Shown here: piece after piece, positions 1-22,347 of the stretch | How the letters are laid out: each line of letters starts with the position of its first letter | Numbering within the stretch: position 1 is the first letter of the stretch | DNA from: an uncultured Pelagibacteraceae bacterium | GTDB lineage: Bacteria > Pseudomonadota > Alphaproteobacteria > Pelagibacterales > Pelagibacteraceae | Assembly: GCA_902543245.1 (NCBI GenBank) | Contig: CACBXQ010000001.1 | Location: 124,001-188,000 of the forward strand | Direction of reading: 5' to 3' | DNA length: 64,000 nt | Program-made: the position numbers and the translations under genes | The notes under the pieces: model-generated | The model's database searches: none | Seen by the model: the letters and a program-made list of their open reading frames with translations, nothing else | Told to the model about the DNA's origin: nothing

Positions 1-1053
1 TAAACTTCCTAACGCCATAGTTGAGAATACAATTAAATCATTAAAGCCTTGAGCTTTAAATTTTTCCTCTGGTGTATACGTAGTTACAAGCAAACTTGTT
101 CCTGTCACAAAAAGAAAATTCCATCCAATTCCAAGAAATATGAGCCCGATAAAATAACTTGTAAATGAAGGTTCAGGAAAGCTTACTAAAATTGTTAAAA
201 TATAAAAAATAACTCCGAAATAAATCATTTTACTGTATCCAAATTTTTTTATCAAATTACCTGTAAATAAAGATGGAAGAAACATTGCCACAAGATGAAA
301 TTGAAGAACTAATCCAGTATTTTGCAAACTGATGTTGTGAATTAAGTGCATGCTAATTGGTGTCGCAGTCATCAAAAAAGACATTATAGCATAGGCAAAT
401 GCTGCTGATGTTAATGCTTGTAAAAACCTTGGACCCTTTATAAACTCCAAATAGCTTCTAGTTCTTCTTTCATCATTTTTAGAAAACTCTATTTCATTTT
501 TATTTTTAAAAAAAAACAAAAATATAGCTGGAAGAAAAGTTAAAATTGATAATATTAAGTATGACCCAACATACATATGATCACTAAAAAAATTTTTTGT
601 ATAATCGGCTAGACTTATACCTATAAATCCAGCAATTATACCTGACAATAATAAATACGAGATAGCTTTAGGTGCCTTATCTTTAGACACACTTTCGGCA
701 GCAGCAAATCGATACTGATGAGTGAATGCACCACTTCCACCAAGTATTAAACAAGATATACAAAACAATATAAAATTTTCTTTAGAAATAGAATAAGCGC
801 CAAGTAAACAAGCAACTGATCCAGCAATTGCTGCGAGAACAAACCCCCACCTTCGACCGATTAAACTCATTACTTTAGCAGCAACTATTGTTGATATTGC
901 TATCCCAACTACATAAATTGATGGAGGTAAAGTTGATAATGTTTTTATTGGGCTCAAATCTGAACCAATAATTCCACTTAAAAAAACTGTTACTGTTGCA
1001 GCAGTAAATCCAAAGATTTGACTTAGAATTAATAATATAAGATTTTTGTTCAC
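1..1053 (-). CDS. MFS transporter, partial at window edge
   Basis: I translated this frame by hand because the ORF track omits it; it runs off the left edge with 351 codons and no stop. The protein is a chain of hydrophobic helices typical of a major facilitator superfamily permease, with a charged loop after the second helix (reading LIGRRWGF) that matches the MFS loop 2-3 signature, and a long polar central loop. The start is GTG at 1053-1051, with an in-frame stop a few codons upstream and no ATG nearby. It probably moves a small metabolite across the inner membrane; the substrate cannot be told. It follows malonyl-CoA decarboxylase by 56 bases on the same strand. Confidence 0.8.
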   Translation of the reverse strand, partial: MNKNLILLILSQIFGFTAATVTVFLSGIIGSDLSPIKTLSTLPPSIYVVGIAISTIVAAKVMSLIGRRWGFVLAAIAGSVACLLGAYSISKENFILFCISCLILGGSGAFTHQYRFAAAESVSKDKAPKAISYLLLSGIIAGFIGISLADYTKNFFSDHMYVGSYLILSILTFLPAIFLFFFKNKNEIEFSKNDERRTRSYLEFIKGPRFLQALTSAAFAYAIMSFLMTATPISMHLIHNISLQNTGLVLQFHLVAMFLPSLFTGNLIKKFGYSKMIYFGVIFYILTILVSFPEPSFTSYFIGLIFLGIGWNFLFVTGTSLLVTTYTPEEKFKAQGFNDLIVFSTMALGSL

Positions 1054-1109
1054 TATATTTTATTTTTAAACTACTAAGTAATTGGTATCACCAATTAATA
1101 TGCTTGTCT

Positions 1110-2420
1110 TTAAAGATATTTTTTTAACTTATTTGAACAAATAACCTTTTGCGTATTCATATATTCTTCATGATTTTGCTCAATAGTTTTAAGCTCATAC
1201 AAATAGTTAACCATTGTACCGAAAGATCTTTTATACCCAACCTCTGAAATATTGGCATTTATAATTATATCATCAACAATTGCACCATTACCTAAATGAA
1301 ATCTGCTAACATCATTGATTGGAAGGCCTTTTTTATTTTTTTCCTTCATAATATAATGTGCTGCAAGTTTAATTATGGCTTCTTTCTGAGCAACAATTCT
1401 ATTATCGCCAACTTTTAGATTTTCATCTTTTAAAAAAGATAAATTTTGACTTGGTAAATTTCCAACAATTTCTTTTAACTTATTTTCATCTAAAAGCCTT
1501 ACCCATTTTGCAAAACCAGGCATTGGAGATAATGTTCCATAATTTTTTATATTGGGCAGTTCCTCTTGAAGTTCATACACAACTCTTTTTATTAAAAAAT
1601 TTCCAAGAGTTACTCTACTTAAGCCTTCTTGGCAGTTACTGATTGAATAAAAAGTTGCTGTGTCATAATTTTTTTCTTTATTCATTGCTGGTTTCATTAT
1701 TTCCTGAATTGATTTACCAAGCCCCTTGGTAAGCGCTACCTCAACAAAAATAATTGGCTCATCATCCAATGCAGGATGAAAATATGAAAAAAACTTTCTA
1801 TCTTCGCCAAGTCTTCTTTTTAAATCATTCATATCTTTCATTTGATGAACCTTTTCATACTCAATAATTTTTTCAAGAATCGCTGCTTTTGTATCCCATG
1901 TAATGGTTTTAAGTTTTAAGAAACCAGGATTAAACCAAGATCTAAAAAGATATCTTAGATCATTATCTAAAGATTCTAATTCAGAATTTTCATTTATAAA
2001 ATTTAATAAATCTTCCCTTAAGCTTACAATTATAGATATACCATTTGGCGCCATATTTAATCTATTAAATAATTCTCTTCTTTTTCCTTCTGTAACTTTA
2101 AATAATTTATTCCTATTTTTTTCATCGTTAGATTTTTTAAATTCATTGATGGCGTCATCTATTTCGTTTAAATCTGGTTTATATTTGTTATTAATTTCTA
2201 GAAAAAACTTAAGTTTATTCTCTGGACTTAAATCTTGGTAAAGCAATAAAATATCTCTTGCTACAGTAATTCCAAATGCAGCTCCCTTATTTGATAGCAA
2301 ATCATCACATAAACTTATAATAGTTTCATAATCATTTTTTTTGATTTCAACTATTTTTCTTTTAAACAGTTTTTGACCAACATCAGCAATTGAGGATAGA
2401 ATATTTTTAAATGCAATCAT
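1110..2420 (-). CDS. Malonyl-CoA decarboxylase
   Basis: The 436-residue protein matches the malonyl-CoA decarboxylase family (MCD/MlyCD, MatA-type), which converts malonyl-CoA to acetyl-CoA and CO2. The N-terminal third is the helical oligomerisation domain. The C-terminal part is the GNAT-like catalytic domain, with the segments HPALDDEPIIFVEVAL, FYSISNCQEGLS, SPMPGFAKW and VSRFHLGNGA. The serine in YSISNCQ and the histidine in RFHLGNGA fall where the family catalytic residues lie. Length is normal for bacterial members. It sits 68 bases after a Liv-type ABC permease gene in the same direction, so it may be co-transcribed with it. No malonyl-CoA synthetase is visible here. Family assignment is secure; the physiological source of malonyl-CoA is not shown. 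Confidence 0.9.
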   Translation of the reverse strand: MIAFKNILSSIADVGQKLFKRKIVEIKKNDYETIISLCDDLLSNKGAAFGITVARDILLLYQDLSPENKLKFFLEINNKYKPDLNEIDDAINEFKKSNDEKNRNKLFKVTEGKRRELFNRLNMAPNGISIIVSLREDLLNFINENSELESLDNDLRYLFRSWFNPGFLKLKTITWDTKAAILEKIIEYEKVHQMKDMNDLKRRLGEDRKFFSYFHPALDDEPIIFVEVALTKGLGKSIQEIMKPAMNKEKNYDTATFYSISNCQEGLSRVTLGNFLIKRVVYELQEELPNIKNYGTLSPMPGFAKWVRLLDENKLKEIVGNLPSQNLSFLKDENLKVGDNRIVAQKEAIIKLAAHYIMKEKNKKGLPINDVSRFHLGNGAIVDDIIINANISEVGYKRSFGTMVNYLYELKTIEQNHEEYMNTQKVICSNKLKKYL

Positions 2421-2488
2421 GTTAAATTATGTTTATTTTAATGATTCCAAAATAGGCATTTTTCTTAATAATGCAATTAAGTAAATTG

Positions 2489-3859
2489 TTATTGTTTTAT
2501 GATCTTTTCAGGCAAAATTCCTTTTGGCCTATATCTCATTATTATTAATAAACCAATTCCTACCATCAAAAATCTAAAGTAAGGGGCGCTGTTAATTAAA
2601 TGAATTTTTATCTCATTTGTCTCTGGTAAGTGAGCGGTAAATAGATTAATCAAAAATAAAGCAATTGGAGCAGCCTCAACCCAAAGAAACCAAACAGCAA
2701 AACCTCCTAGTATTGCTCCAAAATTATTTCCAGTACCTCCAACTATTACCATTACCCATATAACAAACGTATATCTCATTGGTCTATAACTTCCAGGTGT
2801 AAACAACCCATCATTAGTGACCATCATAGCCCCAGCGATACCAACTATTGCCGATCCCAATATAAAAATTAATAGATGTTGCTTAACAACATTTTTTCCC
2901 ATTGCATTTGCTGCTACTTCATTATCTCTTATTGCTCTCATCATTCTTCCCCATGGAGAATAAAGTGCTTTTTGTGTAACAATTAATAAAATTATTACAA
3001 CGCATAAAAATAACCCAGACATACATAGTTTTACATAAACTGAGGATGCATCAATTACCAAAGAGTTTAATAGTTCTTGTCTCTCTGCTAATGAGTTTAC
3101 AAGACCTAATTTTGCAGAATGAAATTTTTCAACTAAATTTATAAACCAGTCTGATTTTTGGAGATCTATTTGATACGGTACTGGTTTTTTTAAACCAATA
3201 ACGTTCTTAACACCTCGTGCAAGCCAATCTTCGTGTTTTATAATGCTCACAACTATTTCAGCAATTAATAGAGTGGCTATTGCTAAATAATCTGCTCTTA
3301 ATCCAAGTGCAATTTTTCCAACAATATATGCTAAGCCACCTGCAAAGAAACCTCCTACTATCCACGAAAATAAAATTGGCATACCTAATCCGCCTAAAAA
3401 GCCAGTTTTTGCTGGATCTATCGCTTCAATACTTTCAATTGCTGGTGTAGAGATTAATTTTAAAAGAATTAAACCAAAAACTATTATAGCAGCTATTGTA
3501 TAATTTCTTTTTTTTGATTTAATTATTTTTTTCAAGGTTAATCTGATTAAAAATACCATTGATATAATAATTAAAAGACAAATAATCAAACCAAAGCCAC
3601 CCGCTTGCCAAGCCTCTCCTACGGGAGCAACAGATACTAAAACAACCGCTAATCCACCTAGAGCAGTGTAACCCATTATTCCAAAATTAATTAAACCTGC
3701 ATATCCCCATTGGATATTTGCACCCATCGTCATAACTGCAGAAATCAGACAGTAATTTAATATAGTTAATGCTATAGACCAAGATTGAAATATGCCAACA
3801 AGTATTATTAAAAATACCATTATGGAATAGGCTAATATAACATTAAAATACTGCCTCAT
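2489..3859 (-). CDS. livM: Branched-chain amino acid-type ABC transporter permease, LivM family (long form)
   Basis: Inner-membrane permease subunit of a Liv-type (HAAT) ABC importer. The conserved core is present: the GYAGLINFGIMGYTALGG segment near residues 50-70, LRADYLAIATL, and the cytoplasmic coupling segment GRMMRAIRDNEVAANAMG, followed by VGGTGNNFGAILGG. At 456 residues it is much longer than usual LivM proteins (about 320-350). The extra length lies around residues 100-160 and 215-270, between core helices. Its start overlaps the stop of the LivH-type gene by 4 bases, indicating translational coupling. The second Liv cluster at 9-13.8 kb carries a normal-length LivM. The substrate is unknown; amino acids, urea or other small polar compounds are all handled by this family. 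Confidence 0.88.
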   Translation of the reverse strand: MRQYFNVILAYSIMVFLIILVGIFQSWSIALTILNYCLISAVMTMGANIQWGYAGLINFGIMGYTALGGLAVVLVSVAPVGEAWQAGGFGLIICLLIIISMVFLIRLTLKKIIKSKKRNYTIAAIIVFGLILLKLISTPAIESIEAIDPAKTGFLGGLGMPILFSWIVGGFFAGGLAYIVGKIALGLRADYLAIATLLIAEIVVSIIKHEDWLARGVKNVIGLKKPVPYQIDLQKSDWFINLVEKFHSAKLGLVNSLAERQELLNSLVIDASSVYVKLCMSGLFLCVVIILLIVTQKALYSPWGRMMRAIRDNEVAANAMGKNVVKQHLLIFILGSAIVGIAGAMMVTNDGLFTPGSYRPMRYTFVIWVMVIVGGTGNNFGAILGGFAVWFLWVEAAPIALFLINLFTAHLPETNEIKIHLINSAPYFRFLMVGIGLLIIMRYRPKGILPEKIIKQ

Positions 3860-4866
3860 ATTACTTTTCCTTTAAATATACCTGTAGGTCTAAATAATAA
3901 AACAATAACCAATATCGAAAATGATACTGCAAATTTATAATCTGTAGATAAAACTTGCATTAAAGAGTCTGGTTCCAACGCTTCTGGTAGCAAATATGAT
4001 AAAAATTTTTTGTAGGCATATGTTAAAAATATTTCTGCGAAGGCAATACAGTAACCTCCAAGGAAAGCACCGAAAGGATTACCTATTCCACCAACAATTG
4101 CTGCTGCAAAAATTGGAAGCATATTGTTAAAATATACGAATGGACGATAACTTTTATCAAGTCCATATAAAATTCCACCTATTGTTGCTAAAATCCCAGC
4201 AATAACCCATGTAATCAAAACAACTCTTTTTGGGTCAATACCCGATAGCAAAGCTAGATCCTCATTATCAGAGTAAGCTCTCATGCTGGTGCCAGTTTTT
4301 GTTCTATTTAAAAACCAAAATAATATTGAAACAAAAATTATAGTTACTACTATAGTAATTGCTTGTGTAGATTTAATTGTTAAACCTTCGCTAAAACCTG
4401 TCATTTCTTTAAATTCAGAAGCTTTTAAAATAAATTTTTGTCCATCAAGAAATGTTCTATCAAAAGGTCCTATAATTATTCTTATAATAGCTTGGGTCAC
4501 AAACATAACTCCTACACTAACCATCGCCAATTGTACTGGTGGACTCTTTTTAATTCTATAATAGCTAAATACATACTTATCTATTAATAGCATGTATAAA
4601 ATCATCATTATTATGGCAAAAGGTATTGTTAATAATGCAGTTGGTAATATACCAAGATTAATTCCTAAAGACTGAAAATAAAAGGTAAGTAGAACTGCAA
4701 ACATAGTTCCAAAAGACATCATGTCCCCAGTTGCAAAATTTGCAAATCTCAAAATTCCATAAATTAATGTTACAAAAATTGCACCTAATGCTAGCTGTGA
4801 ACCATATGTTAAAGCAGGAATAATCGTATAATTTAACAAGACTATAATTGCATTAATAAATTCCAT
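3856..4866 (-). CDS. livH: Branched-chain amino acid-type ABC transporter permease, LivH family
   Basis: LivH-type membrane permease of 336 residues, partner of the long LivM beside it. The N-terminal region reads GAIFVTLIYGILRFANFATGDMMSFGTM, the usual LivH signature (LxxGxxxxxNxAxGxxxxxG), and the coupling segment is TSMRAYSDNEDLALLSGID. Roughly eight hydrophobic helices are visible. It starts one base after the LivF stop and overlaps the LivM start by 4 bases, so G-F-H-M is one operon in this order. No binding-protein gene accompanies this cluster. Confidence 0.88.
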   Translation of the reverse strand: MEFINAIIVLLNYTIIPALTYGSQLALGAIFVTLIYGILRFANFATGDMMSFGTMFAVLLTFYFQSLGINLGILPTALLTIPFAIIMMILYMLLIDKYVFSYYRIKKSPPVQLAMVSVGVMFVTQAIIRIIIGPFDRTFLDGQKFILKASEFKEMTGFSEGLTIKSTQAITIVVTIIFVSILFWFLNRTKTGTSMRAYSDNEDLALLSGIDPKRVVLITWVIAGILATIGGILYGLDKSYRPFVYFNNMLPIFAAAIVGGIGNPFGAFLGGYCIAFAEIFLTYAYKKFLSYLLPEALEPDSLMQVLSTDYKFAVSFSILVIVLLFRPTGIFKGKVI

Positions 4867-4867
4867 T

Positions 4868-5575
4868 TTATGCTCCTAAAAAAGATCTTCTTACTTCTGG
4901 ATCATGCAAAAGTTGTTTGCCTGAACCCTCAAATTTATTTTTGCCAGTAACTAAAACATATCCTCGGTCAGATATACTTAATGCTTGTTTAGCATTCTGT
5001 TCTACCATTATTATTGCAACATTTGTTTTTTTAACTTTTATTATATGGTTAAATAATTCATCCATAACAATTGGAGAAACTCCTGCGGTTGGCTCATCTA
5101 ACATTAAAACAGATGGTTTGGTCATGAGAGCTCTACCAAGTGCCACTTGTTGTCTTTGTCCTCCAGATAGCTCACCAACGGTTTGACTTTTTTTATCACT
5201 TAAAATTGGAAATAACTCATATATTTCTTCAATAATTTTATCTAATTCATCATTTCTAAGGAATGCTCCTATCTCTAAATTTTCTCTTACTGTTAAACCA
5301 GCAAATACATTTCTAGTTTGTGGAACAAATGATATTCCTCTTTTCACTCTGTCTTGTGGGTTTAAGTCTGATATGTTTTTTCCAGCAATGGTTACATCAC
5401 CTGATCTTAAGTTGAGCAAACCAAGCATAGCTTTCATTGCCGTACTTTTTCCAGCCCCATTAGGTCCAAGTATTGCAACAATTTCCCCTTTATTTACATT
5501 AATTGTACATGAAGAAATTATATCGGCTCCTTCATCATAACCTGCAGTCATTTGATTACCTTCAAAAAATGCCAT
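4868..5575 (-). CDS. livF: Branched-chain amino acid-type ABC transporter ATP-binding protein, LivF family
   Basis: The 235-residue ATPase has Walker A GPNGAGKST near residue 37, Q-loop VPQTRNVF, ABC signature LSGGQRQQ and Walker B VLMLDEPTAG followed by the family's typical serine-proline. The H-loop position reads IMVEQNAKQALSI with Q/N in place of the usual His, which is normal for LivF. Short length without the extra C-terminal region identifies LivF rather than LivG. It energises the adjacent permeases from the cytoplasmic face. The start overlaps the LivG stop by one base (TAATG). Confidence 0.9.
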   Translation of the reverse strand: MAFFEGNQMTAGYDEGADIISSCTINVNKGEIVAILGPNGAGKSTAMKAMLGLLNLRSGDVTIAGKNISDLNPQDRVKRGISFVPQTRNVFAGLTVRENLEIGAFLRNDELDKIIEEIYELFPILSDKKSQTVGELSGGQRQQVALGRALMTKPSVLMLDEPTAGVSPIVMDELFNHIIKVKKTNVAIIMVEQNAKQALSISDRGYVLVTGKNKFEGSGKQLLHDPEVRRSFLGA

Positions 5576-6369
5576 TAAATTTTGCCCTTATTAAAATTTG
5601 ATCTACCTAAATAACTTTCAATTACTTTTTCGTTTTTTTTAACTTCATCAGCAGTTCCTTCAAACAATATAGATCCCTCAGACATAACAATTACAGGATT
5701 ACATAATCTACTTATAAAATCCATATCATGCTCAATCATACAAAAAGTGTATCCTTGTTCTTTGTTTAGCCTTAATATTGACGAGCCAATTTCTTTTAAT
5801 AATGTTCTATTTACACCTGCGCCAACTTCATCTAATAAAACTAATTTTGCATCAATCATCATAGTTCTACCTAATTCTAAAAGTTTTTTCTGTCCTCCAG
5901 ATAAATTACCAGCTAACTCATTTGAAAGATGTTTAAGATTTAAAAAGTCTATAACTTCCAAAGCCTTTTTTCTGACAGCGTTCTCTTCTTTTTTTATTAA
6001 ATTTGGTTTTATTAATACATTTAGCAAATTTTCTCCAGATTGATTTCCAGGTACCATCATTAAATTTTCGATTACGGACATATTGGAAAATTCATGAGCT
6101 ATTTGAAATGTTCTCAATAAACCTTTTGAAAAAAGTTCATAAGATGGAACGTCAGTTATATCCTCATTATTAAACTCAACACATCCATCACTTGATTTTA
6201 AATTACCAGCAATTAAATTGAATAAAGTACTTTTGCCTGAACCATTGGGTCCTATAATTCCAGTTATTGAACCTTTTTTTATTTGCAGTGAACAATTTGA
6301 TACTGCTGCAAGTCCACCAAAATATTTTGTAAGATTATCGACTTTTAGGATATCTGGGGCTGACGACAT
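5575..6369 (-). CDS. livG: Branched-chain amino acid-type ABC transporter ATP-binding protein, LivG family
   Basis: The 264-residue ATPase has Walker A GPNGSGKST, the LivG-type stretch LLRTFQIAHEFSNMSVIENL, signature LSGGQKKLLELGRTMM, Walker B LVLLDEVGAGV and the H-loop MIEHDMDFI. The long helical insert between Q-loop and signature, and the C-terminal EVIESYLG-type end, are LivG hallmarks. Walker B reads DEVGAG rather than DEPTAG, a variation seen in this family. It lies 6 bases after the ProC-like gene and leads the G-F-H-M order, the reverse of the second cluster's H-M-G-F order. Confidence 0.9.
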   Translation of the reverse strand: MSSAPDILKVDNLTKYFGGLAAVSNCSLQIKKGSITGIIGPNGSGKSTLFNLIAGNLKSSDGCVEFNNEDITDVPSYELFSKGLLRTFQIAHEFSNMSVIENLMMVPGNQSGENLLNVLIKPNLIKKEENAVRKKALEVIDFLNLKHLSNELAGNLSGGQKKLLELGRTMMIDAKLVLLDEVGAGVNRTLLKEIGSSILRLNKEQGYTFCMIEHDMDFISRLCNPVIVMSEGSILFEGTADEVKKNEKVIESYLGRSNFNKGKI

Positions 6370-6375
6370 AAAAGA

Positions 6376-7146
6376 TTATACTTTGTTAAGTCTTTTAAGA
6401 ATACTATTAAGTGTTTTCTGAGAGGACCTATAAAATCCTGCTTTTTTTAGTTCTTTGAGTCCTTGTTCATTTAAACCTCCTTTTGTCTGTGATTCTTTTA
6501 CTAAAAATTTCAAATTCTTCATTGAGTTTAAAACTGCATCCTCCGAAAGTGCCACAAATAGAGAAGTTATATATTTTTGTGCTTTGTCTCTTCTTACTCC
6601 CTTGATGACTAACCAACTAGATAAAACATTTAATAACTCATAAAAAGGAGCCATCATGCCTGATATAGCCCAAAAATTATTTGACAACTTTTCATTATGT
6701 AATTCAACTGTAACCCCAAGTTTATTAAAAAATTCCTTAACTTTTTTATTTGGAGGAAACACTGGTATAGGTCCCTTTTTTAATGAAATAAATGGAAGCG
6801 GTATTGCTCTAAAAATTTTAGCATTTACTTTTATATTTTTTTTTAGCTGAACCATTTTCATAGTTGATATAAAGCTTATTACAGTTTGATTAGATCTAAA
6901 TTTTAAATCTTTAATTATTCTGTTACCTACATTTGGAGTAACGGCTAGAAAAACCCAATTTGATTTATCTATAATCTCTTGATTGTTTTTAGCAACACTA
7001 ACTTTTCTGAACTTTTTACTGATCTTATTTGAGATTGTTCTATTTCTTGGGGACAATAAAATTTTTTTAAATGAAATTTTTGAGTTACAAATTCCAGTAA
7101 CCACTGAAGATGTGATTTTTCCAGTACCTATAAATCCTAAAATCAT
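6376..7146 (-). CDS. Pyrroline-5-carboxylate reductase-like protein (ProC family)
   Basis: This 256-residue protein has an N-terminal Rossmann fold beginning ILGFIGTGKITSSVVTGI, followed by a beta strand WVFLAVTPN, as in ProC. The C-terminal helical dimer domain contains AISGMMAPFYELLNVLSSWL and KGGLNEQGLKELKKAG, which stand in for the ProC SGPAY...SPGGTT regions but diverge from them. P5C reductase makes proline from pyrroline-5-carboxylate with NAD(P)H. Because the catalytic SPGGTT region is degenerate, it may act on a related imine or be a paralogue rather than the biosynthetic enzyme. It lies in line with two Liv transporters, 6 bases before livG. Confidence 0.7.
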   Translation of the reverse strand: MILGFIGTGKITSSVVTGICNSKISFKKILLSPRNRTISNKISKKFRKVSVAKNNQEIIDKSNWVFLAVTPNVGNRIIKDLKFRSNQTVISFISTMKMVQLKKNIKVNAKIFRAIPLPFISLKKGPIPVFPPNKKVKEFFNKLGVTVELHNEKLSNNFWAISGMMAPFYELLNVLSSWLVIKGVRRDKAQKYITSLFVALSEDAVLNSMKNLKFLVKESQTKGGLNEQGLKELKKAGFYRSSQKTLNSILKRLNKV

Positions 7147-7183
7147 ATTAAAATCACAATATATAAGGTGAGCTATTTTTCAA

Positions 7184-7615
7184 TTAATTATTGAAGAAAG
7201 ATCCTCTTATTCTAAGTAATTCCCTACTTAAATTTTTGTTTTCTTTAAAAGGTTTTCTTCCATGGAGCCAAAAATAATTATTTGCAATTATTGATGAACC
7301 AACTGGTAATTTAGTAATAATTTTATTTTTACTGCCTTCTAGACTATCAGATAGTTTTTGCAAAAAAATACCTTGTTTCATATTTCTTGGTTCTGGAAAT
7401 TGATCTATATAGGAAATTTGTGGTCTGCCTTCTTGATCATCAAAAAAAATTGGATGTTCAACTTTGTAATCAATATTTTTACTTTTTGGAGATCCCCAGA
7501 GAAAATCTTCTCTACCTATAGGATCTTTTGATAAAGTTTTACATTCTTCCCAATCATCTAAATGCAACATTGCAGTTTCTCCCCCTTCAACATTTTTTTC
7601 CTCAATTTTTGACAT
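7184..7615 (-). pseudogene. CsiD/GlaH-like glutarate 2-hydroxylase, C-terminal fragment of a broken gene
   Basis: This 143-residue frame matches the second half of CsiD (GlaH), the Fe(II)/2-oxoglutarate oxygenase that turns glutarate into 2-hydroxyglutarate. Recognisable parts are VEGGETAMLHLDDWEE, PKSKNIDYKVEHPIFF, YIDQFPEPRNM and the C-terminal YFWLHGRKPF...RELLRIRG. The last stretch carries the distal iron-ligand histidine and the 2-oxoglutarate-binding arginine. It starts at an ATG that overlaps the stop of the N-terminal fragment by 14 bases in another frame. The segment that normally joins the two halves, including the HxD iron-binding pair, is absent. I infer an internal deletion of roughly 60 bases; an assembly error is the main alternative. 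Confidence 0.75.
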
Positions 7616-8033
7616 AAGCTTTCCTTAAATATGAGTCACTATTATCCTCATGTTTGACATGAAATCTTGCATAATATTTTCCTGCCATTAAATCATGATT
7701 TGGTATACCAATTAAATGTGCGACAGCAGTTGATAACTTAAGTAAAAAGTCTGAATTAATTTTTTTTTTATTTACCTCTGGGTGGATAATAAAACATCCA
7801 GTATTTCTATCTCGAATAATTTTATTTATCAGTATATTTAACTTATTTGATGTTATTTCGTTTAATATGTTAGCTATAGTAAATCTAGTAAATGGTTTAT
7901 ACTCGAGTGCAGTTAGATCAAATCTTTTAAATGGCTTTTTTAATTTTTCTAAGGTTTCTTTTTTAATTGTAATTAATACAATCCTATCTGATACGTGATG
8001 TTGAGATATTTCTAAACCTTGAATTTTTTCCAT
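7602..8033 (-). pseudogene. CsiD/GlaH-like glutarate 2-hydroxylase, N-terminal fragment of a broken gene
   Basis: This 143-residue frame matches the first half of CsiD: ALEYKPFTRFTIANIL, DRNTGCFIIHPE, KLSTAVAHLIGIPNHDLMAGKYYARFHVK and DNSDSYLRKAY. Family members continue past YLRxAY into a short stretch holding the iron ligands (xLHxDGTY) and then MKxxExN. Here the frame instead stops three codons after YLRKAY, and the sequence jumps to the equivalent of the KIEEKN segment in a different frame. The break is therefore an internal deletion plus frameshift. Neither half can bind iron alone. It lies 4 bases after azlD in the same run of genes. Confidence 0.75.
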
Positions 8034-8037
8034 ATAA

Positions 8038-8361
8038 TTAAAAATAACTATTTAAAAATGATAATATAATAGCAGAGAAAACTGTGGGATAAACAAGGTT
8101 TTTTTTTGAAATAAAAAATATTAGTACCGAAATAATAATTACTGTAAACCTTACTAGATAATCTGAGTTTGCTAAAGCTCCCTCGGGAAAAATTAATATT
8201 CTTGAAATTAGTGCTGCAAGCGTCGAATATGCTAAGCAATTAAACCACTTAAATATTTTTGAATCCTCTTTTATTTTTTCAGAGCTAATAGCTCCTAAAA
8301 ATCTTGATAAATAAGTTGCGATTGAAGTCGCTATAATAGCTAACACAATAATATTGCTCAT
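8038..8361 (-). CDS. azlD: AzlD family branched-chain amino acid exporter subunit
   Basis: A 107-residue, four-helix membrane protein of the AzlD family. The first helix with TYLSRFLGA and the next with WFNCLAYSTLAALISRILIF give the typical AzlD pattern (TxxxRxxP and a proline/alanine-rich second helix). It directly follows AzlC, overlapping by 4 bases, and the pair normally forms a two-subunit exporter for branched-chain amino acids and analogues such as azaleucine. The family is annotated from Bacillus azlCD; the substrate here is inferred. Confidence 0.82.
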   Translation of the reverse strand: MSNIIVLAIIATSIATYLSRFLGAISSEKIKEDSKIFKWFNCLAYSTLAALISRILIFPEGALANSDYLVRFTVIIISVLIFFISKKNLVYPTVFSAIILSFLNSYF

Positions 8362-9056
8362 TTATTCTCTCCAAGTAGAAAAGCTATTGTGCCGGCTGTT
8401 ACTCCTCCAAAAAGGATACACCATTCTGGAGAAAAATAATAAAAAATTGGTCCCAAAAAAGATCCTAGTATAACAGAAATTGCTATTCCTTTAGTTTTAA
8501 TAGCTCCTATCATCATGCAAAGAAAGTAAATTGGATTTACTATCATTAAACCCACCATCATATTTGGAGTTAATAAATCAGATGAAAAATATCCTATTAT
8601 AGTTGAAAATATTGCAATCAACCATGTTGCTGTTCCAATGCCTATCCAAAAATCTATCCTATTTTTCCTTTCAATAGTTTGATATTTATTTTTCATTATA
8701 AGCCACGAAGATACTGCAATAAAATGACATGAAATATAATATTTCCACTTTGGTTGACTCTTATCTATTAACAATGGAAATAATGATACTGTCATTGGAT
8801 ATAGACGAGCATTTACTAACCAAACAGCTAGAAAAATATTTAATATTGAAGCGCCAACTAATAAAGACTCAGCCATTACTAATGAACCAGGTAATGCATA
8901 AGTGAATAAAGTAGACAAAATACTCTGTTCAAGTGAAAAATTTAGATTTTTTAATAACGCACCAATTGCTATAAAACTTGCACCTAGCGCTAATGCGGGG
9001 CTATCTATGCCCTTAACAGATTTAAGACCTAGTAAAAAATATTTTAAATTTACCAT
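8358..9056 (-). CDS. azlC: AzlC family branched-chain amino acid exporter subunit
   Basis: The 232-residue membrane protein has the AzlC arrangement: LALGASFIAIGALLKNLNFS, then the family-typical TYALPGSLVMAESLL and NARLYPMTVSLFPLL, where the NxRhxxM motif is diagnostic. About six to seven helices are visible. It begins with a TAATG one-base overlap on the livF stop, so the exporter pair is translationally tied to the upstream Liv importer operon. Confidence 0.85.
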   Translation of the reverse strand: MVNLKYFLLGLKSVKGIDSPALALGASFIAIGALLKNLNFSLEQSILSTLFTYALPGSLVMAESLLVGASILNIFLAVWLVNARLYPMTVSLFPLLIDKSQPKWKYYISCHFIAVSSWLIMKNKYQTIERKNRIDFWIGIGTATWLIAIFSTIIGYFSSDLLTPNMMVGLMIVNPIYFLCMMIGAIKTKGIAISVILGSFLGPIFYYFSPEWCILFGGVTAGTIAFLLGENK

Positions 9057-9841
9057 TAACCGCCAAGGAATAATCTTCCTACATCAGGATTTTTAAGTAA
9101 ATCATCACCCTTTCCTGCAATTGCAGTTTCCCCAGACACTAAAACATAACCAATGTCAGCAAACTCAAGACCTTTTTTTGCATTTTGCTCAACTAAAATA
9201 ATAGTTTTTTTCTCATTATGCTGAAGATCACCTAAAATTTCAAAAACCATATCTATATATTTTGGCTCTAAACCTATTGAAGGCTCATCAACTAATAATA
9301 CAGATGGTTTCATAACAAGAGCCCTAGATATTTCTAATAATCTTCTCTCACCACCAGACAAAACCTTTGCTGGTTGATTACGTCTATTTCTTAATCTTTC
9401 ATATTTCTCAAATATTTTTTCGGCCTCCTCATAGGACTCATTTGTTTTATCTTTAATAAAGCCACCCATTAATAAATTTTCCTCTACAGTCATATCAGGA
9501 AATACAGAATTATCTTGAAGAATATATGCTATTCCTACAGTTTTTAGTTTTTCTGCAGGAGATAAATTTGTAATTTCATTCCCATTAATTTTAATTTTTC
9601 CAGAAAAAATATTTGTAAAACCATAAATGGAATGAAGTATTGTTGATTTGCCAGCTCCATTTGGTCCAATCAAACATAACGATTGTGCTTTGTTTATAAA
9701 TAAATCGAAGTTGTGTAATATCTCCATCTTTCCATACCCAGCAAATAACTTTTCTATTGTTAAATGGATATTATTTGAAGATAATTTTTTTAAATCTTCT
9801 GGACCAGGTGCTTTACCTAGGACTTCATACTGATTAGACAT
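9056..9841 (-). CDS. livF: Branched-chain amino acid-type ABC transporter ATP-binding protein, LivF family (second cluster)
   Basis: The 261-residue ATPase has Walker A GPNGAGKST, Q-loop ILQDNSVFPDMTVEENLLMG, signature LSGGERRLLEISRAL, Walker B VLLVDEPSIGLEP and IILVEQNAKKGL in the H-loop position, as expected for LivF. It carries about 25 extra N-terminal residues (MSNQYEVLGKAPGPEDLKKL) compared with the LivF in cluster one. The start is set by the TAATG overlap with the livG stop. It powers the LivH/LivM permeases encoded just upstream. Confidence 0.9.
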   Translation of the reverse strand: MSNQYEVLGKAPGPEDLKKLSSNNIHLTIEKLFAGYGKMEILHNFDLFINKAQSLCLIGPNGAGKSTILHSIYGFTNIFSGKIKINGNEITNLSPAEKLKTVGIAYILQDNSVFPDMTVEENLLMGGFIKDKTNESYEEAEKIFEKYERLRNRRNQPAKVLSGGERRLLEISRALVMKPSVLLVDEPSIGLEPKYIDMVFEILGDLQHNEKKTIILVEQNAKKGLEFADIGYVLVSGETAIAGKGDDLLKNPDVGRLFLGG

Positions 9842-10581
9842 TATTGAGCTCCCAAATAAGCATCTATTACTCTTTTATCATTCTTTATTTCCTCTGGTGA
9901 TCCTTTTGCTAGCATTTTACCGTGTGCAAGACAAAAAATGCTTTCTGCAAGTTGCATTATTACTCTCATATTATGCTCAATAACCAAAAGAGTTATGCCA
10001 AAGTCTTGATTAACTTTGATGAGTCTATCAATTATTCCATTTATTAGTGTAGGATTAATTCCTGCAGTAGGTTCATCTAATAATAACATTTCTGGTTCAT
10101 TCATTAGTGCCATTGCTAACTCTAGTAACTTTTGCTGCCCAAAAGATAAATCTCCAGCTCTTAGTTGTCTTTTTTGATACAATCCTACAAAACTAAGTAA
10201 ATTTTCAGCTTTTTCTGTGAGCTCTTTAGGTATTTTTGAAAATATTGAAAATAATCCTTCGTCACTTCCCTTGTGGCTAATAAGCATATTTTCTACACAA
10301 TTTAGTTTTCCATAAATTCTTGTTTGTTGAAAAGTTCTAAGTAGACCAAGCTTTGCTATTACTGGAACCGGTAGCTCAGATACCTCCATACCATTAAACT
10401 TGATAGAGCCATTATCTATAGGATAAGTTCCAACAATAGAATTAAATAAAGTTGTTTTGCCAGAACCATTTGGTCCAATTAATCCAACTATTTTTCCTTT
10501 TTCAACTGACATCGAAATATCAACATTGGCTTTTACACCACCAAATGACTTACTCACATTGCTAACATTTAAAATGCTCAT
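9841..10581 (-). CDS. livG: Branched-chain amino acid-type ABC transporter ATP-binding protein, LivG family (second cluster)
   Basis: The 246-residue ATPase has Walker A GPNGSGKTT, LGLLRTFQQTRIYGKLNCVENML, signature LSFGQQKLLELAMALM, Walker B MLLLDEPTAGINP and H-loop VIEHNMRVI. The end EEIKNDKRVIDAYLG is the LivG C-terminal tail. The signature reads LSFGQ instead of LSGGQ, a known LivG variation. It overlaps livM by 4 bases (ATGA). Confidence 0.9.
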   Translation of the reverse strand: MSILNVSNVSKSFGGVKANVDISMSVEKGKIVGLIGPNGSGKTTLFNSIVGTYPIDNGSIKFNGMEVSELPVPVIAKLGLLRTFQQTRIYGKLNCVENMLISHKGSDEGLFSIFSKIPKELTEKAENLLSFVGLYQKRQLRAGDLSFGQQKLLELAMALMNEPEMLLLDEPTAGINPTLINGIIDRLIKVNQDFGITLLVIEHNMRVIMQLAESIFCLAHGKMLAKGSPEEIKNDKRVIDAYLGAQ

Positions 10582-11627
10582 TTTAACTCTACTTGTGCTT
10601 TTCTATCTTTTTCATCAACAACTTCTCCAAATTTTTCAGGATATTTTTCTCTTAACCATCCCATTATTCCCTCTGGAAAATAAATAACTATAACAACAAT
10701 CAACACCCCGAGAGCAACGTATTGCCAACCTAGGAAAAAAGTCCAAAAACCCTCCTTAAAAATATGAAATACTGTTGCACCAATTATTGGTCCCCAAAGA
10801 GTTCCTTTTCCACCCAAGATTGCCATTAGGACCATGAATACTCCCATCTCTCTCCCATCAAAAGCAACATCTGTTGAGTCTATATATCCAACTAGTCCAC
10901 CCATAATTCCTCCTGCAAGACCACAAAAGAAAGCTGATATCATCCATCCGATAATTTTATATTTCATTGTCTCAATTCCCATTGCCTCAGCTTTATCTTC
11001 ATTATCCCTAATTGCATTTAATATTAATTTAAATCTAGTTGTGTAAATTCCTTTTACAGCCACGAAGGTCAGTATCAAAACGATAAAACTTAGGAAATAA
11101 AAAAATTCACCTCTTGATTCTAAGCTTCCAACATCAGGAAATGGTGGTGTAGTAAAACCTTGTCCAGCTCCAATGATTTCAATTCCTCCAGAAATTTCAC
11201 CTGCTGCAACTCCTAATCCTAATGTACAAATTGCAAAATAATGTCCTCTGAGTCCTAAAATAGAGTAACCAATCAAACCTGCTACAATAGTTGGCACTAC
11301 AGCAGCAACTATTAATCCAACAGCCATTCCCTGAAAAAATTGAGATGGAGTATGTACAAACGTTTTCTCACCACCACTCTCTGTCCACTCAGCAAGTGGG
11401 AAAAACATTCCAACCTGCACAGAGGCACATAGATACATACCAAGACCATAAAAGAGTATATTTCCAAATGAATTATATCCCATTTCACCACCTTGGATAT
11501 TCCAAGTTGTAGAAAGAACAATTAGTACACAAAGAATAGACAGCTGTACTTTAAAAGCTGGAAATATAAATGGAGCGGCTATACCAAAAATTAAAATTCC
11601 AATATATAAAATTAAATTATTTTTCAT
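10578..11627 (-). CDS. livM: Branched-chain amino acid-type ABC transporter permease, LivM family (second cluster)
   Basis: A 349-residue permease with the LivM core GEMGYNSFGNILFYGLGMYLCA, LRGHYFAICTLGLGVAAGEI, the coupling stretch FKLILNAIRDNEDKAEAMGIE and LGGKGTLWGPIIGA. It ends YFPEGIMGWLREKYP plus a polar tail. Length is normal for the family, unlike the long LivM at 2.5-3.9 kb. It starts with a one-base overlap on the livH stop. Confidence 0.9.
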   Translation of the reverse strand: MKNNLILYIGILIFGIAAPFIFPAFKVQLSILCVLIVLSTTWNIQGGEMGYNSFGNILFYGLGMYLCASVQVGMFFPLAEWTESGGEKTFVHTPSQFFQGMAVGLIVAAVVPTIVAGLIGYSILGLRGHYFAICTLGLGVAAGEISGGIEIIGAGQGFTTPPFPDVGSLESRGEFFYFLSFIVLILTFVAVKGIYTTRFKLILNAIRDNEDKAEAMGIETMKYKIIGWMISAFFCGLAGGIMGGLVGYIDSTDVAFDGREMGVFMVLMAILGGKGTLWGPIIGATVFHIFKEGFWTFFLGWQYVALGVLIVVIVIYFPEGIMGWLREKYPEKFGEVVDEKDRKAQVELK

Positions 11628-12520
11628 TATTTTAAGTACTCTCTTTTTCTAGAAAGTTTAAATCTCCTGTAAACAAGTATTAAAACTAAAAGCAAAAATA
11701 CTGATCCAATTCTAAATTCAGTTCCTAAAATATAATCTGCAAATTCCTCAAATATACCTAATCCCATTCCAGACATTGCAACTCCAGGTAAATTTCCAAG
11801 TCCCGCAACAATGACAATCATAAATGATCTGATTGTGTAAGGTAAACCCATGTAAGGATGAATAGTAAAAGTAATGGAGATTAATGCACCAGCTACACCA
11901 CAAAGGGCCGCATTTATACCAAAAGTAGCAGCATAAACTTTTTCTGTATCGACACCTAAAATCTTAGCAGCTCTTGCATTTTGTGCTGTAGCTCTAATTG
12001 CACGTCCAAGCTTAGACTTTTTCATATAAATAACTAAACAAATTGCAAATAAAATACTTATAAAAGCTGAAAATATTTTTGAATTTGGTAAGACGACATT
12101 ATTATCAAATAACATAGTTGTTCCATAACCTGAATTTGCTAGAACAACATCAGCTCCAAATGCAAAATTCATCAATTGCATGAAAAGAATACTTATCCCA
12201 AAAGTTGCCAAGATAGATATAAATAGATCTCTATCTACAACTTTATTAATTACAAGCTTGTAAATTGCTATACCTACAAAATACATTATGATTGGTGATA
12301 CAATAACTCCCCAAGCCGGATGAATACCATAAAGGTACATAAAATAAGCAATGTATCCACCTAAAATAACAAGATCACCTTGAGCGATATTTATTATATT
12401 CATTACTCCCCATTGAAGTGCCATACCATATGCAATCAATGCAAACAAAATTCCAAGTAAAATTCCGTCCAAACATGCTTGAACTGATATCATTGGATAT
12501 TGGAAGACCATGAAATCCAT
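11627..12520 (-). CDS. livH: Branched-chain amino acid-type ABC transporter permease, LivH family (second cluster)
   Basis: A 297-residue permease with the LivH signature GILFALIAYGMALQWGVMNIINIAQGDLVILGGYIAYF near the N-terminus and the coupling segment GRAIRATAQNARAAKILGVD. The C-terminal GLGNLPGVAMSGMGLG completes the family pattern. It follows the substrate-binding protein gene across a strong terminator-like hairpin, so it is probably expressed at a lower level than the binding protein from the same promoter. Confidence 0.9.
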   Translation of the reverse strand: MDFMVFQYPMISVQACLDGILLGILFALIAYGMALQWGVMNIINIAQGDLVILGGYIAYFMYLYGIHPAWGVIVSPIIMYFVGIAIYKLVINKVVDRDLFISILATFGISILFMQLMNFAFGADVVLANSGYGTTMLFDNNVVLPNSKIFSAFISILFAICLVIYMKKSKLGRAIRATAQNARAAKILGVDTEKVYAATFGINAALCGVAGALISITFTIHPYMGLPYTIRSFMIVIVAGLGNLPGVAMSGMGLGIFEEFADYILGTEFRIGSVFLLLVLILVYRRFKLSRKREYLK

Positions 12521-12532
12521 AATGAACCTTTA

Positions 12533-12561
12533 AAAAATACCCCCTAGTATTCAGGGGGTAT
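12533..12561 (-). terminator. Rho-independent terminator/attenuator between SBP gene and livH
   Basis: A perfect 9-bp inverted repeat (ATACCCCCT / AGGGGGTAT) with a 7-base loop is followed on the minus strand by a run of six T. The G/C-rich stem stands out in this A/T-rich region. It lies just after the binding-protein stop codon and before livH. Its likely role is partial termination, giving much more binding protein than permease. Confidence 0.85.
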
Positions 12562-12574
12562 TTATAGATTTGTT

Positions 12575-13813
12575 TTATCTTTCAGACCACGAAGGAATTG
12601 GATGTATCAACTTAGCTGATGCCCATTTAGTTGGAGCAACAACTTTGTTTTCACATTTTCCTCCATCATCACACATTACTTGAAAAAGTACCATTGGCTT
12701 ATCAACATTTTGACCACCTGGTGCAAATTTTATGTTTCCGTAAAATGTTTGCATATTTGTAGCGGCAAGAGCGTCTCTTACTTTCTTTTGATCAAAAGAA
12801 TTCGCTCTCTCAAATGCGTCTTTAAATACCAATAGAGCAGCTGATGACTCTGCTGCTTGATAAGGCGGCGCATAACCAAACTCCTTTGTGAAGTCTGCAT
12901 CATAAGTCATACCATCTTTAAAGAAGTCATCTTTATAAGTTAGTGTTTTATGCCACTGAGACGCGCATAGAGCATATTGTGAATTTTTACCGTGCTGTTT
13001 TGACAATTTCGCAGCATCACAATGTGTCATTGCTAACATTGGAACATCTACTTTCATTTCAGCGATTTGTCTAATAGCAGTAAGAGCACCTTTAGTATGA
13101 CCCGAAACTACTAAAACATCTGGTTTCATTTGTTTCACTTTTACTAATGTCGCAGCCATATCGTTTAGTTCTTTTGGTAGTTTATCGTCTATAACTTTTT
13201 TAGAGCCAGTTCTCTCGATTGCATCTAAAACTCCCAGTCTTACATCTTGAGAGAATGCATCTTGTTCAAATGCCATTGCAACAGTAACTCCTTTTCCATT
13301 ATTCTTTTCAACTGCTAGATCTATAGCAACATCTAGATATAAATTTGCTGGAGCTAGTACTGCAAAAAGGTATTTATAACCTTTGGTGAACAAAGATCTA
13401 GAAGCACCATTAGCTTCAACCATTGGAACTCCATACTTTTCTGTAACCGGAGCAATAGCTTTAGTTAATCCTGAACTATAAGGTCCAAGCATAAACTCAA
13501 CACCATCTTGTGAAATTAATCTTTCTGCAAGCTGAGCAGCTCTCTTAGGATTTGACTCATCATCATAGTAAATGATATCAAATTTATAAGTTTTTCCACC
13601 AACCTTTACTCCTCCCATGCTGTTAATTCTGTCAACGGCCATGTTATAACCATTTTGAGTATGAACACCATTTGATGAATATTTTCCAGTAAGTGAAATT
13701 GCTGCACCTAAGATAATCTTATCTCCCACGACTTTTGAAAAAGAAATTGTGGAAGTAGAGATTAATAGTGCTAAAGCAGAAAAAAATGTAATAATTATAT
13801 TTTTAATTTTCAT
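12575..13813 (-). CDS. Periplasmic substrate-binding protein of Liv-type ABC transporter
   Basis: The 412-residue protein has an N-terminal signal peptide (positive MKIKN, then a hydrophobic helix ending near SISFSK at about residue 27). The mature part is a type I periplasmic binding fold, opening IILGAAISLTGKYSSNG, with the characteristic DDESNPKRAAQLAERLISQDGVEFMLGPYSS. It delivers substrate to the LivH/LivM permease coded downstream. A good Shine-Dalgarno (AGAGAGGAA) sits 4-5 bases before the ATG, strong for this genome and consistent with high expression. The ligand (branched-chain amino acid or another compound such as an amide) cannot be read from sequence. Confidence 0.9.
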   Translation of the reverse strand: MKIKNIIITFFSALALLISTSTISFSKVVGDKIILGAAISLTGKYSSNGVHTQNGYNMAVDRINSMGGVKVGGKTYKFDIIYYDDESNPKRAAQLAERLISQDGVEFMLGPYSSGLTKAIAPVTEKYGVPMVEANGASRSLFTKGYKYLFAVLAPANLYLDVAIDLAVEKNNGKGVTVAMAFEQDAFSQDVRLGVLDAIERTGSKKVIDDKLPKELNDMAATLVKVKQMKPDVLVVSGHTKGALTAIRQIAEMKVDVPMLAMTHCDAAKLSKQHGKNSQYALCASQWHKTLTYKDDFFKDGMTYDADFTKEFGYAPPYQAAESSAALLVFKDAFERANSFDQKKVRDALAATNMQTFYGNIKFAPGGQNVDKPMVLFQVMCDDGGKCENKVVAPTKWASAKLIHPIPSWSER

Positions 13814-13846
13814 TTGTTTCCTCTCTATTTAATTAAATAAACAATT

Positions 13847-13875
13847 ATTTAACTAATAAATTAAAACGATTGCAA
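13847..13875 (-). promoter_or_regulatory. Candidate sigma-70 promoter of the SBP-livHMGF operon
   Basis: On the minus strand, TTGCAA is followed by 17 bases and TTAAAT, ahead of the strong Shine-Dalgarno and ATG of the binding-protein gene. Such boxes occur by chance in A/T-rich DNA, but the spacing and location fit. Confidence 0.35.
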
Positions 13876-13898
13876 GTTACAGAAATGACCAAGCCTAT

Positions 13899-14513
13899 TT
13901 AAAATTTTTGTGTAAACGCAATAATTAAAGCAATTATGATAATTACACACGCAGAAATTGTATTTATTATTTTTGGATTTGCTTTGATCCACACTATTAA
14001 TTTATTTGCTAATAAAGCATAAGCAACTAAAGATAAAAAATCTAAAAATACATAAGTGGTAATTAAAATTAAAAATTGAATTACATAATTCTCATTAAAA
14101 TTTATAAATTGTGGAAATATAAATGGAAAAAACATCCATGCCTTAGGACTTGTTCCTGCAACAAAAAAACCATCTTTAAAAAAAGAAAAAAAGTTTTTTT
14201 TAATACTGTTATTAGAATTTATGTTTTTGGGTCCTGATTTATGAATATCATATGCAAGATAAATTAAATAAATTATTCCAAACCACTTAAGAATAGATAA
14301 TATATTAGGATTATCTGAAAGAAAAGATCCAATAAAAAAAATTACTAAAGTTGCTTGAAATATATTAGCTGTAATATCACCTAAAGCTGTCCATACACAT
14401 TTGTTTACTCCATAATTCATAGAGTACGAGATTATTACAATCCTGGGTGTGCCTGGAGTTATAAATAAAACTAATATTATTTGAAGAAATAAAATAAAAT
14501 CATTTGGAAACAT
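13899..14513 (-). CDS. LysE family amino acid exporter
   Basis: The 204-residue membrane protein has about six hydrophobic helices. The N-terminal TPGTPRIVIISYSMNYGVNKCVWTALGDITANI corresponds to the LysE/RhtB signature (TPGPxxxxxxxxxxxxGxxxGxxxxxGxxxG), and KWFGIIYLIYLAYDIHKSG and FFKDGFFVAGTSPKAWMFF are the next family blocks. LysE/RhtB proteins export amino acids or related compounds by proton antiport. The gene is divergent from the DUF2805/glutaredoxin pair; the 147-base gap contains a possible folded element. Confidence 0.85.
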   Translation of the reverse strand: MFPNDFILFLQIILVLFITPGTPRIVIISYSMNYGVNKCVWTALGDITANIFQATLVIFFIGSFLSDNPNILSILKWFGIIYLIYLAYDIHKSGPKNINSNNSIKKNFFSFFKDGFFVAGTSPKAWMFFPFIFPQFINFNENYVIQFLILITTYVFLDFLSLVAYALLANKLIVWIKANPKIINTISACVIIIIALIIAFTQKF

Positions 14514-14542
14514 AAATTGCTTTTTATGATTTTTTTAAAAGG

Positions 14543-14595
14543 ATGGATAGCCCTAAAAAACCGGGAGCTAAAGATGGCTAAATAGGACTATCTAT
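14543..14595. promoter_or_regulatory. Possible structured leader element between lysE-like gene and DUF2805 gene
   Basis: ATGGATAG (14543-14550) can pair with CTATCTAT (14588-14595), with one G-U. Inside it, TAGCC/GGCTA or CCC/GGG plus AGC/GCT can pair, giving a compact three-way or pseudoknot-like fold of about 53 bases. It is relatively G/C-rich for its surroundings. On the minus strand it would lie 29 bases before the LysE start. No known riboswitch class was matched. Confidence 0.3.
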
Positions 14596-14603
14596 TTACA
14601 TAA

Positions 14604-14617
14604 TATCATATGTGATA
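14604..14617. promoter_or_regulatory. Candidate operator (inverted repeat) in divergent intergenic region
   Basis: TATCA-TATG-TGATA is a 5-bp perfect inverted repeat with a 4-base spacer between two divergent genes. It could be a repressor site, but short A/T-rich palindromes are common. Confidence 0.2.
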
Positions 14618-14660
14618 AAATTTGCATTAATCATTTTTTTCAAATATTAAGAAAAAGGGT

Positions 14661-14954
14661 ATGAAAAAAAGTCACAGACCAGAAACTAAAGTAAAAAAAC
14701 CTGAACCAAATCCCAATAGTCCAGATTGGGTTATATGGGCCGCATGGGCAGATAGAGTAACTTTTGAAGAAATTAATAAGAGAACCGGTAAAACAGAGTC
14801 TGAAGTTATCAAAATTATGAGAAGATCTTTAAAACCATCATCTTTCAGATTGTGGAGGAAGAGAGTAAATTCACAAAGTATTAAACATAGGAAAAAATTC
14901 GAGTATTCAAGAAAAAATATAAGAAGACAAATTAAAGAAAGTGACTATATTTAA
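14661..14954 (+). CDS. DUF2805 / TIGR03643 family protein
   Basis: This small basic protein of 97 residues has the core NSPDWVIWAAWADRVTFEEINKRTGKTESEVIKIMRRSLKPSSFRLWRKRV, which is the DUF2805 (TIGR03643) family. The central part looks like a helix-turn-helix-like fold (TFEEINKRTGKTESEVIKIMR), so nucleic-acid binding is possible, but the function is not established. It is followed 3 bases later by glutaredoxin on the same strand. Confidence 0.8.
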   Translation: MKKSHRPETKVKKPEPNPNSPDWVIWAAWADRVTFEEINKRTGKTESEVIKIMRRSLKPSSFRLWRKRVNSQSIKHRKKFEYSRKNIRRQIKESDYI

Positions 14955-14957
14955 AAT

Positions 14958-15212
14958 ATGAAAAACGTTACAATATATTCAGGTCCAAACTGCGCTTTCT
15001 GCGATGCGGCCAAAAGATTACTTACGAGAAATAATATTTCTTATAATGAAATTAATATTGCGGTTGATCCGGATAAAAGAGATGAGATGTTAAAAAGATC
15101 AAATGGAATGAGAACTATACCACAAATCTTTTTTGACGAGAAACATATTGGTGGATATGTTGAAGTAAGAGCTCTTGAAAAAGAGAAAAAACTTTTAGAT
15201 TTAGTAAAATAG
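14958..15212 (+). CDS. grxC: Glutaredoxin 3
   Basis: The 84-residue glutaredoxin has the redox motif near residue 11 reading CAFCDAAKRLL (C-x-x-C), the conserved TIPQIFFDEKHIGGYVE block (cis-proline and GSH-binding GG) and normal Grx3 length. It reduces disulfides with glutathione in the cytoplasm. The first active-site pair is CAFC rather than the more usual CPYC. It is paired with the DUF2805 gene upstream and converges on msrB, another thiol-redox enzyme, 8 bases away. Confidence 0.92.
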   Translation: MKNVTIYSGPNCAFCDAAKRLLTRNNISYNEINIAVDPDKRDEMLKRSNGMRTIPQIFFDEKHIGGYVEVRALEKEKKLLDLVK

Positions 15213-15220
15213 AAACAATT

Positions 15221-15598
15221 TCAAACTTTTTTTTCTTTAAATACTAAGCATATACCATTGTTACAGTATCTTTTACCTGTTGGCTTAGGACCATCATCAA
15301 ATATATGTCCGTGATGTCCACCACATTTTTTACAATGATATTCTTTTCTCTCATAACCAATATAAAAGTCAGATTTTATTTCAAAAACATCTGGAAGAGA
15401 CTCATAAAATGATGGCCATCCAGAACCACTTTCATATTTTGTACTAGATTCAAAAAGTTTTATTCCACATCCAACACAATGGTAGCTACCTTCTCTCTTT
15501 TCATTGTTTAATTCACTAGAGCCTGGTCTTTCTGTTCCCTCTTCAAGTAAAACTAATTTTTGTTCAGCTGTTAATTTAGATTTATCTATTTTACTCAT
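15221..15598 (-). CDS. msrB: Peptide-methionine (R)-S-oxide reductase MsrB
   Basis: The 125-residue MsrB repairs oxidised methionine (R epimer). Zinc-site cysteines are present as CVGC and CKKCGGHHGH, with SGSGWPSFYE for substrate binding. The catalytic cysteine is in GKRYCNNGICLVF. That last block normally reads RYCINSASL, so it is diverged after the catalytic Cys and contains an extra Cys. Its start overlaps the hydroxyacid dehydrogenase stop by 8 bases. Confidence 0.9.
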   Translation of the reverse strand: MSKIDKSKLTAEQKLVLLEEGTERPGSSELNNEKREGSYHCVGCGIKLFESSTKYESGSGWPSFYESLPDVFEIKSDFYIGYERKEYHCKKCGGHHGHIFDDGPKPTGKRYCNNGICLVFKEKKV

Positions 15599-16544: not shown

Positions 16545-17442
16545 TTAATTTTTTTTTGTTTGATAATGTTATTCCAATAATTATAAAAATTGCACCCAAA
16601 ATATGATAAAACATAAATTTTTCTTTAAATATAATCATGGCTAATATCGCACCGAAGATTGGCATTAAATGAAGAAATACACCTGCTCTATTTGTGCCAA
16701 TAATGCTAATTCCTTTTATCCAAAAAAGATATGAAGCAATGGCAGGAAATAATACCGCATAAGTCAAAATTGAAAAGAAAGGTAAGTTAAAATTTAAAGG
16801 GTTGCCTATTTTATTTTCAATAAAATATATCGGAATTAAAAAAATAAATCCAAATGAAATAATTACTTGTAATAATGAAATTTGTGAAAGCTTATATTTT
16901 TTTTTTTTAAGTAATGCAGAATATGTTGCCCATGAAAACATAGCTATAGTCATAGATAGATCACCCTTATTAAAATCTAGATTTTTTATTACTTCTAAAT
17001 CTGCCTTTGTAATAATACAAAAAACTCCAACTAGAGAAAGAATAACACCTATTATTTGAAAGTTATTAGTTTTCTCAATTTTTAATACCGAAGAAATTAG
17101 TATTATCATTACTGGTATTGTTGAGATCATTAATATGCCACTTATAACTTGAGTAAAATATAAAGAATAATAAACAACAGAATTAAATATTGTAATTCCA
17201 GTCACGCCTAAAACTAAAAATAATCTGAAATTTTCAATTATATAATTTTTATTTTTATAGATTTCTTTAAAGGTAAATGGAAATAATATAATCCACACAA
17301 AAAACCACCTATAAAAATTTAAAGAAAATGCTGGTATTTCATAAATACTCGCAAATTTTCCAATAACAAAATTTCCTGCCCAAAAAAGTGAAGCAAGTAT
17401 AAGTAATAAATAAGCTAATCTATCGCTATTTTTTAATGTCAC
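16537..17442 (-). CDS. EamA/DMT superfamily transporter
   Basis: The 301-residue protein is made of ten hydrophobic helices in two five-helix repeats, the drug/metabolite transporter (EamA) layout. The first repeat opens LLLILASLFWAGNFVIGKF and contains NFYRWFF. The second contains MTIAMFSWATYSALLKK and ends with FKEKFMFYHILGAIFIIIGI. It is likely an exporter of a small metabolite. It overlaps the upstream DadA-like gene by 4 bases and the downstream dehydrogenase by 8 bases, so the three are co-transcribed. Confidence 0.85.
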   Translation of the reverse strand: MTLKNSDRLAYLLLILASLFWAGNFVIGKFASIYEIPAFSLNFYRWFFVWIILFPFTFKEIYKNKNYIIENFRLFLVLGVTGITIFNSVVYYSLYFTQVISGILMISTIPVMIILISSVLKIEKTNNFQIIGVILSLVGVFCIITKADLEVIKNLDFNKGDLSMTIAMFSWATYSALLKKKKYKLSQISLLQVIISFGFIFLIPIYFIENKIGNPLNFNLPFFSILTYAVLFPAIASYLFWIKGISIIGTNRAGVFLHLMPIFGAILAMIIFKEKFMFYHILGAIFIIIGITLSNKKKLNA

Positions 17443-22346: not shown

Positions 22347-22347
22347 T

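Follow-up and report, generated by a model that had tools for sequence, protein, structure and literature searches.

A 62-bp deletion splits a Pelagibacteraceae csiD gene and removes its HxD iron ligands, probably marking a recent null allele

The window, the whole 64,000-nucleotide stretch of Pelagibacteraceae DNA analysed here, is part of contig 1 in the draft genome of a Pelagibacter-type SAR11 bacterium from the ocean, an assembly of 996,595 bases in 24 contigs that is 80% complete. Between a proC-like reductase gene and the genes azlD, azlC and those of a liv-type ABC transporter it carries two short reading frames in place of one csiD gene (Table 1). A Pfam profile search matched the N-terminal part (7602-8033, minus strand) to positions 3-135 of the CsiD profile PF08943 (E = 3.9e-52) and the C-terminal part (7184-7615, minus strand) to positions 155-294 (E = 4e-64); the two parts score 217 and 178 bits against a cut-off of 27, and jointly they cover the profile colinearly except for positions 136-154. 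The same parts match residues 6-139 (E 1.9e-25) and 161-300 (E 5.2e-39) of the CsiD structure PDB 1jr7. The frames overlap by 14 bases (7602-7615), and the final three residues of the N-terminal part are out of frame. An initial annotation had read the two frames as halves of one CsiD, a reading that the profile matches bear out, and its coordinates, frames and 14-base overlap agree with the sequence and the list of open reading frames. On the basis of these matches, positions 7184-8033 are assigned to CsiD (PF08943) by descent.

Table 1 Coordinates of the features at the csiD locus (positions within the window)
Feature	Positions	Strand	Description	Basis
proC-like reductase	6376-7146
Block csiD, azlD, azlC, livF, livG, livM, livH, livK	7162-13896		Absent from relative G617 as one piece
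csiD C-terminal part	7184-7615	-	MSKIEEKNVEGG...LLRIRGSFFNN, then stop; CsiD profile 155-294	Pfam, PDB 1jr7
csiD N-terminal part	7602-8033	-	143 codons, ends ...SDSYLRKAYVKN, then stop; CsiD profile 3-135	Pfam, PDB 1jr7
Out-of-frame TGA ending the N-terminal part	7602-7604	-	3 codons past the deletion	Sequence, ORF list
ATG opening the C-terminal frame	7613-7615	-		Sequence
Deletion junction	7614-7618	-	AAAG-CTTAT-GTCAAAA	DNA compared with intact relatives
azlD	8038-8361
azlC	8358-9056
liv-type ABC transporter	9056-13813

Comparison of the DNA with that of intact relatives indicated that exactly 62 bp, corresponding to 20 codons and 2 nt, are missing from csiD. Among the loci retrieved from relatives, the 160 in which csiD can be read all encode, with minor variants, SDSYLRKAY-xNMDLHTDGTYVKExTDWLL-MSKIEEKNVEG, the 20-residue stretch xNMDLHTDGTYVKExTDWLL always lying between YLRKAY and [M]SKIEE, and none of the 160 is split as here. 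In the window the YLRKAY codons are instead followed at once by those for MSKIEE, which lie in a different frame (...AAAGCTTATGTCAAAAATTGAGG...). As 62 cannot be divided by three, the frame shifts and a TGA is reached three codons later, so that csiD occupies two frames and not one continuous frame. Both breakpoints have AT (7614-7615) in common, a match that grows to 5 bp, CTTAT, if the last Leu codon was ancestrally CTT, as it is in the relatives L004 and L044. An AAGGA (7622-7626, minus strand) stands 6 nt upstream of the C-terminal ATG, so that reinitiation could give rise to the C-terminal part.

In E. coli CsiD, His160, Asp162 and His292 are the iron ligands, glutarate is bound by Arg311 and the main-chain nitrogen of Gly163, and an analogue of 2-oxoglutarate is bound by Arg309 (PMC6265302). 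The deletion has taken the equivalents of His160, Asp162 and Gly163, that is, two of the three iron ligands together with Gly163. The equivalents of His292, Arg309 and Arg311 are retained in the C-terminal part, in FWLHGR...LLRIRG, where the two LLRIRG arginines align to 295 and 297 of the 1jr7 chain (309 and 311 in E. coli numbering). The initial annotation's count of about 20 skipped residues carrying the HxD ligands is thereby refined to exactly 62 bp, with Gly163 gone as well, and the distal ligand histidine and the 2-oxoglutarate arginine are, as it had claimed, intact. Since the HxD ligands, which an active glutarate hydroxylase of the Fe(II)/2-oxoglutarate dioxygenase type requires, are absent from either part and from both together, no Fe(II) site and no glutarate hydroxylation are expected; judged by its sequence, csiD as read here cannot be an active CsiD. 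Neither a second CsiD copy nor a stray HTDGT-type segment was found elsewhere in this 80%-complete genome, and we rejected a displaced segment or a second intact csiD as the explanation.

The split is private to this genome. A degenerate pattern for the junction matched, among 399 genomes of the genus, this one only (0 of the 398 others), which excludes both an ancestral split common to relatives and the outcome that the initial annotation had named as its refutation, a two-frame split shared by all relatives. Relatives carrying the intact segment, for which it had suggested looking, are plentiful: full-length, uninterrupted CsiD was counted in the search table in 107 of 201 genus genomes, CsiD being intact in about half of the genus and missing from about half. 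With orthologues intact at this position in relatives and a lesion confined to one genome, csiD has the marks of a pseudogene made by internal deletion. IMG/VR held no viral relative of CsiD and no match to the junction. Partial CsiD matches in seven genomes (G528, G067, G541, G152, G239, G065 and G280) were considered as further pseudogenes and rejected where examined, because their short locus lengths indicate that they stop at contig ends. The sole true frame break among the partial matches examined is in G126 (L175/L178, G126:C9:5887-6763), whose csiD carries one additional A within a stretch of A that follows IWGSP.

The conserved part of the gene shows no sign of decay. Outside the gap, none of the 117 positions at which 97% or more of 115 distinct relatives agree has changed, and in simulations of unconstrained change the probability of seeing no conserved change and no stop drops to 5% at 1% divergence. 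The lesion is taken to be recent because the conserved residues are undecayed, in agreement with the initial annotation; if real, its age would correspond to at most about 1% neutral substitutions per site, when a probability of 5% is taken as the limit. The intact relatives are at most 77% identical in amino acids to this csiD outside the gap, the nearest orthologue being at 77%. In a tree, this csiD splits off early among those of the genus, a position without strong support, and its terminal branch (0.21) is of ordinary length. Divergence is slightly above the usual level in the N-terminal part (median identity 66%, against 73%), with its conserved sites unaffected.

The closest sampled relative, G617 (90% identity over 23203-26919, the next best genome reaching 82%), lacks csiD altogether. 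BLASTN against its locus (L217) placed window positions 3926-7161 and 13897-26919 at the adjacent G617 positions 1-3236 and 3240-16264; the absence of the 6.7-kb block from csiD to livK is clean. Identity to G617 is 94-97% around the locus but falls to about 80% in the stretches that flank the block on both sides, a dip which suggests that the block was exchanged by homologous recombination, in either direction. In G199 and G191 the proC-like gene likewise stands without csiD beside it. Among the 20 nearest relatives CsiD is present in 9, intact in every case, and gave no match in 11, a number to be read as a ceiling on absence, these relatives being draft genomes. We note that a second dip in identity between G617 and this genome, to 80-88%, occurs at window positions 21996-23196 and could mark either another tract of recombination or a gene that evolves fast.

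We consider it likely that this csiD is a real, recent null allele, formed by a short deletion at matching sequences in a gene that the lineage can spare. A single deletion between the short matches (the 2-bp AT or the 5-bp CTTAT), through replication slippage or microhomology-mediated deletion, would have removed the 20 codons and 2 nt with His160, Asp162 and Gly163 and shifted the frame; enzyme activity would then have been lost and selection on csiD relaxed, and the break would represent an early step of a gene loss common in the genus. Consistent with this account, csiD appears dispensable in the lineage, whose closest sampled relative is without the whole csiD-azlDC-liv block. The intact relatives, the private junction and the lack of decay support the initial annotation's proposal of a CsiD pseudogene formed by internal deletion; the option of an artefact, weighed below, stands beside it.

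A finer version of this explanation, with which our confidence in it overlaps, is that the deletion is real but segregates at low frequency, most conspecific cells carrying an intact csiD. An age below about 1% neutral divergence suits a young allele, the split occurs in a single genome, and the presence of csiD is polymorphic among near relatives. The sampled genomes, however, include no conspecific that could show the intact allele, and the nearest of them, G617, is without the locus; we hold this refinement to be plausible but short of probable. More speculative, and on balance doubtful, is the suggestion drawn from the flanking dips that we see a snapshot of gene loss in which cells trade presence and absence of the block through homologous recombination, dead genes thereby leaving by exchange and not by slow decay.

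It is unlikely, in our view, that the csiD of this organism is intact and that the 62-bp gap arose from the assembler or from whole-genome amplification, as a chimera joined directly at microhomology. Such an error would be private to one genome, as the split is, and would leave conservation just as perfect; the source assembly is a draft in 24 contigs at 80% completeness, and the named genus relatives are mostly single-cell genomes, in which amplification makes chimeras. In amplified DNA of a single E. coli cell more than 70% of chimeric junctions had 2-21 nt of complementarity (PMC1855051), a range that includes the at least 2 bp in common at the csiD junction. In the same study, however, inversions accounted for 85% of the chimeras, and segments less than 10 kb apart were directly joined in only 11 of 475, albeit in the one cell studied (PMC1855051), and a chimera would here have to dominate the assembly consensus. 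Moreover, 34 of the 35 window genes compared with orthologues in three near-complete relatives are in one frame, csiD alone being split; this indicates that base quality is generally good, and we rejected poor base quality as a general cause. In the genus, 107 csiD copies are likewise unbroken, and the lack of the surrounding block in G617 speaks for a genuine loss rather than an artefact.

A two-part protein, active or repurposed, whose halves would be translated independently (the second by reinitiation at the ATG at 7615) and then assemble, is very hard to credit, for although the AAGGA 6 nt before that ATG, the 14-base overlap and the intact conserved residues would suit it, the HxD ligands are in neither part nor elsewhere in the 80%-complete genome, no relative has the arrangement, and recency accounts for the conservation.

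By itself, a recent null allele of csiD is gene loss of an ordinary kind. In SAR11, pseudogenes are thought to be scarce, and a young, clear-cut null allele beside a sister without the block offers a usable case for learning how catabolic genes are lost from streamlined genomes. An annotation pipeline would list two CsiD genes at this locus, of which none would be a working one.

In E. coli the glutarate used by CsiD comes from lysine degradation (PMC6265302), and in cultured SAR11 a conversion of cadaverine to succinate via the lysine pathway has been proposed (PMC8437039). No match over the cut-off for L-2-hydroxyglutarate oxidase (NF008726) was found in this 80%-complete genome or in nine near-complete genomes of the genus, six of which have full-length CsiD, a negative that applies to that family; other FAD oxidases could fill the role. 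Matches over the cut-off occur in other genera of the Pelagibacteraceae (G209, G212 and G222), and the genera g9 and g12 of that family have both CsiD and the oxidase, whereas this genus, irrespective of the broken copy, has CsiD with no such oxidase over the cut-off to take on its product. Separately, a complete genome contains a match to the oxidase just below the cut-off with one in-frame TAA (L196, G240:C1:239218-240342), possibly another broken gene of the CsiD pathway.

The gene order azlC-azlD-csiD-proC-like is common to this genome and to G012, G235 and G082, and intact SAR11 csiD genes (for example L108 from AG-909-E04, L061 from G012 and L004 from G062) differ from the copy described here in having one open frame with LHTDGTYV. 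The csiD of G126 resembles this copy in that its frame too is broken, in the same gene and genus, but differs in that a single extra A (CCAAAAAAG vs CCAAAAAG) breaks it without loss of residues; that lesion could reflect either a homopolymer error or a loss that occurred independently. With the glutarate 2-hydroxylase CsiD/GlaH of E. coli (PDB 1jr7 and 6gpe; PF08943) the present copy shares full-length colinearity and the residues His292, Arg309 and Arg311, whereas the 20 residues containing His160, Asp162 and Gly163 are gone from it and its frame is broken.
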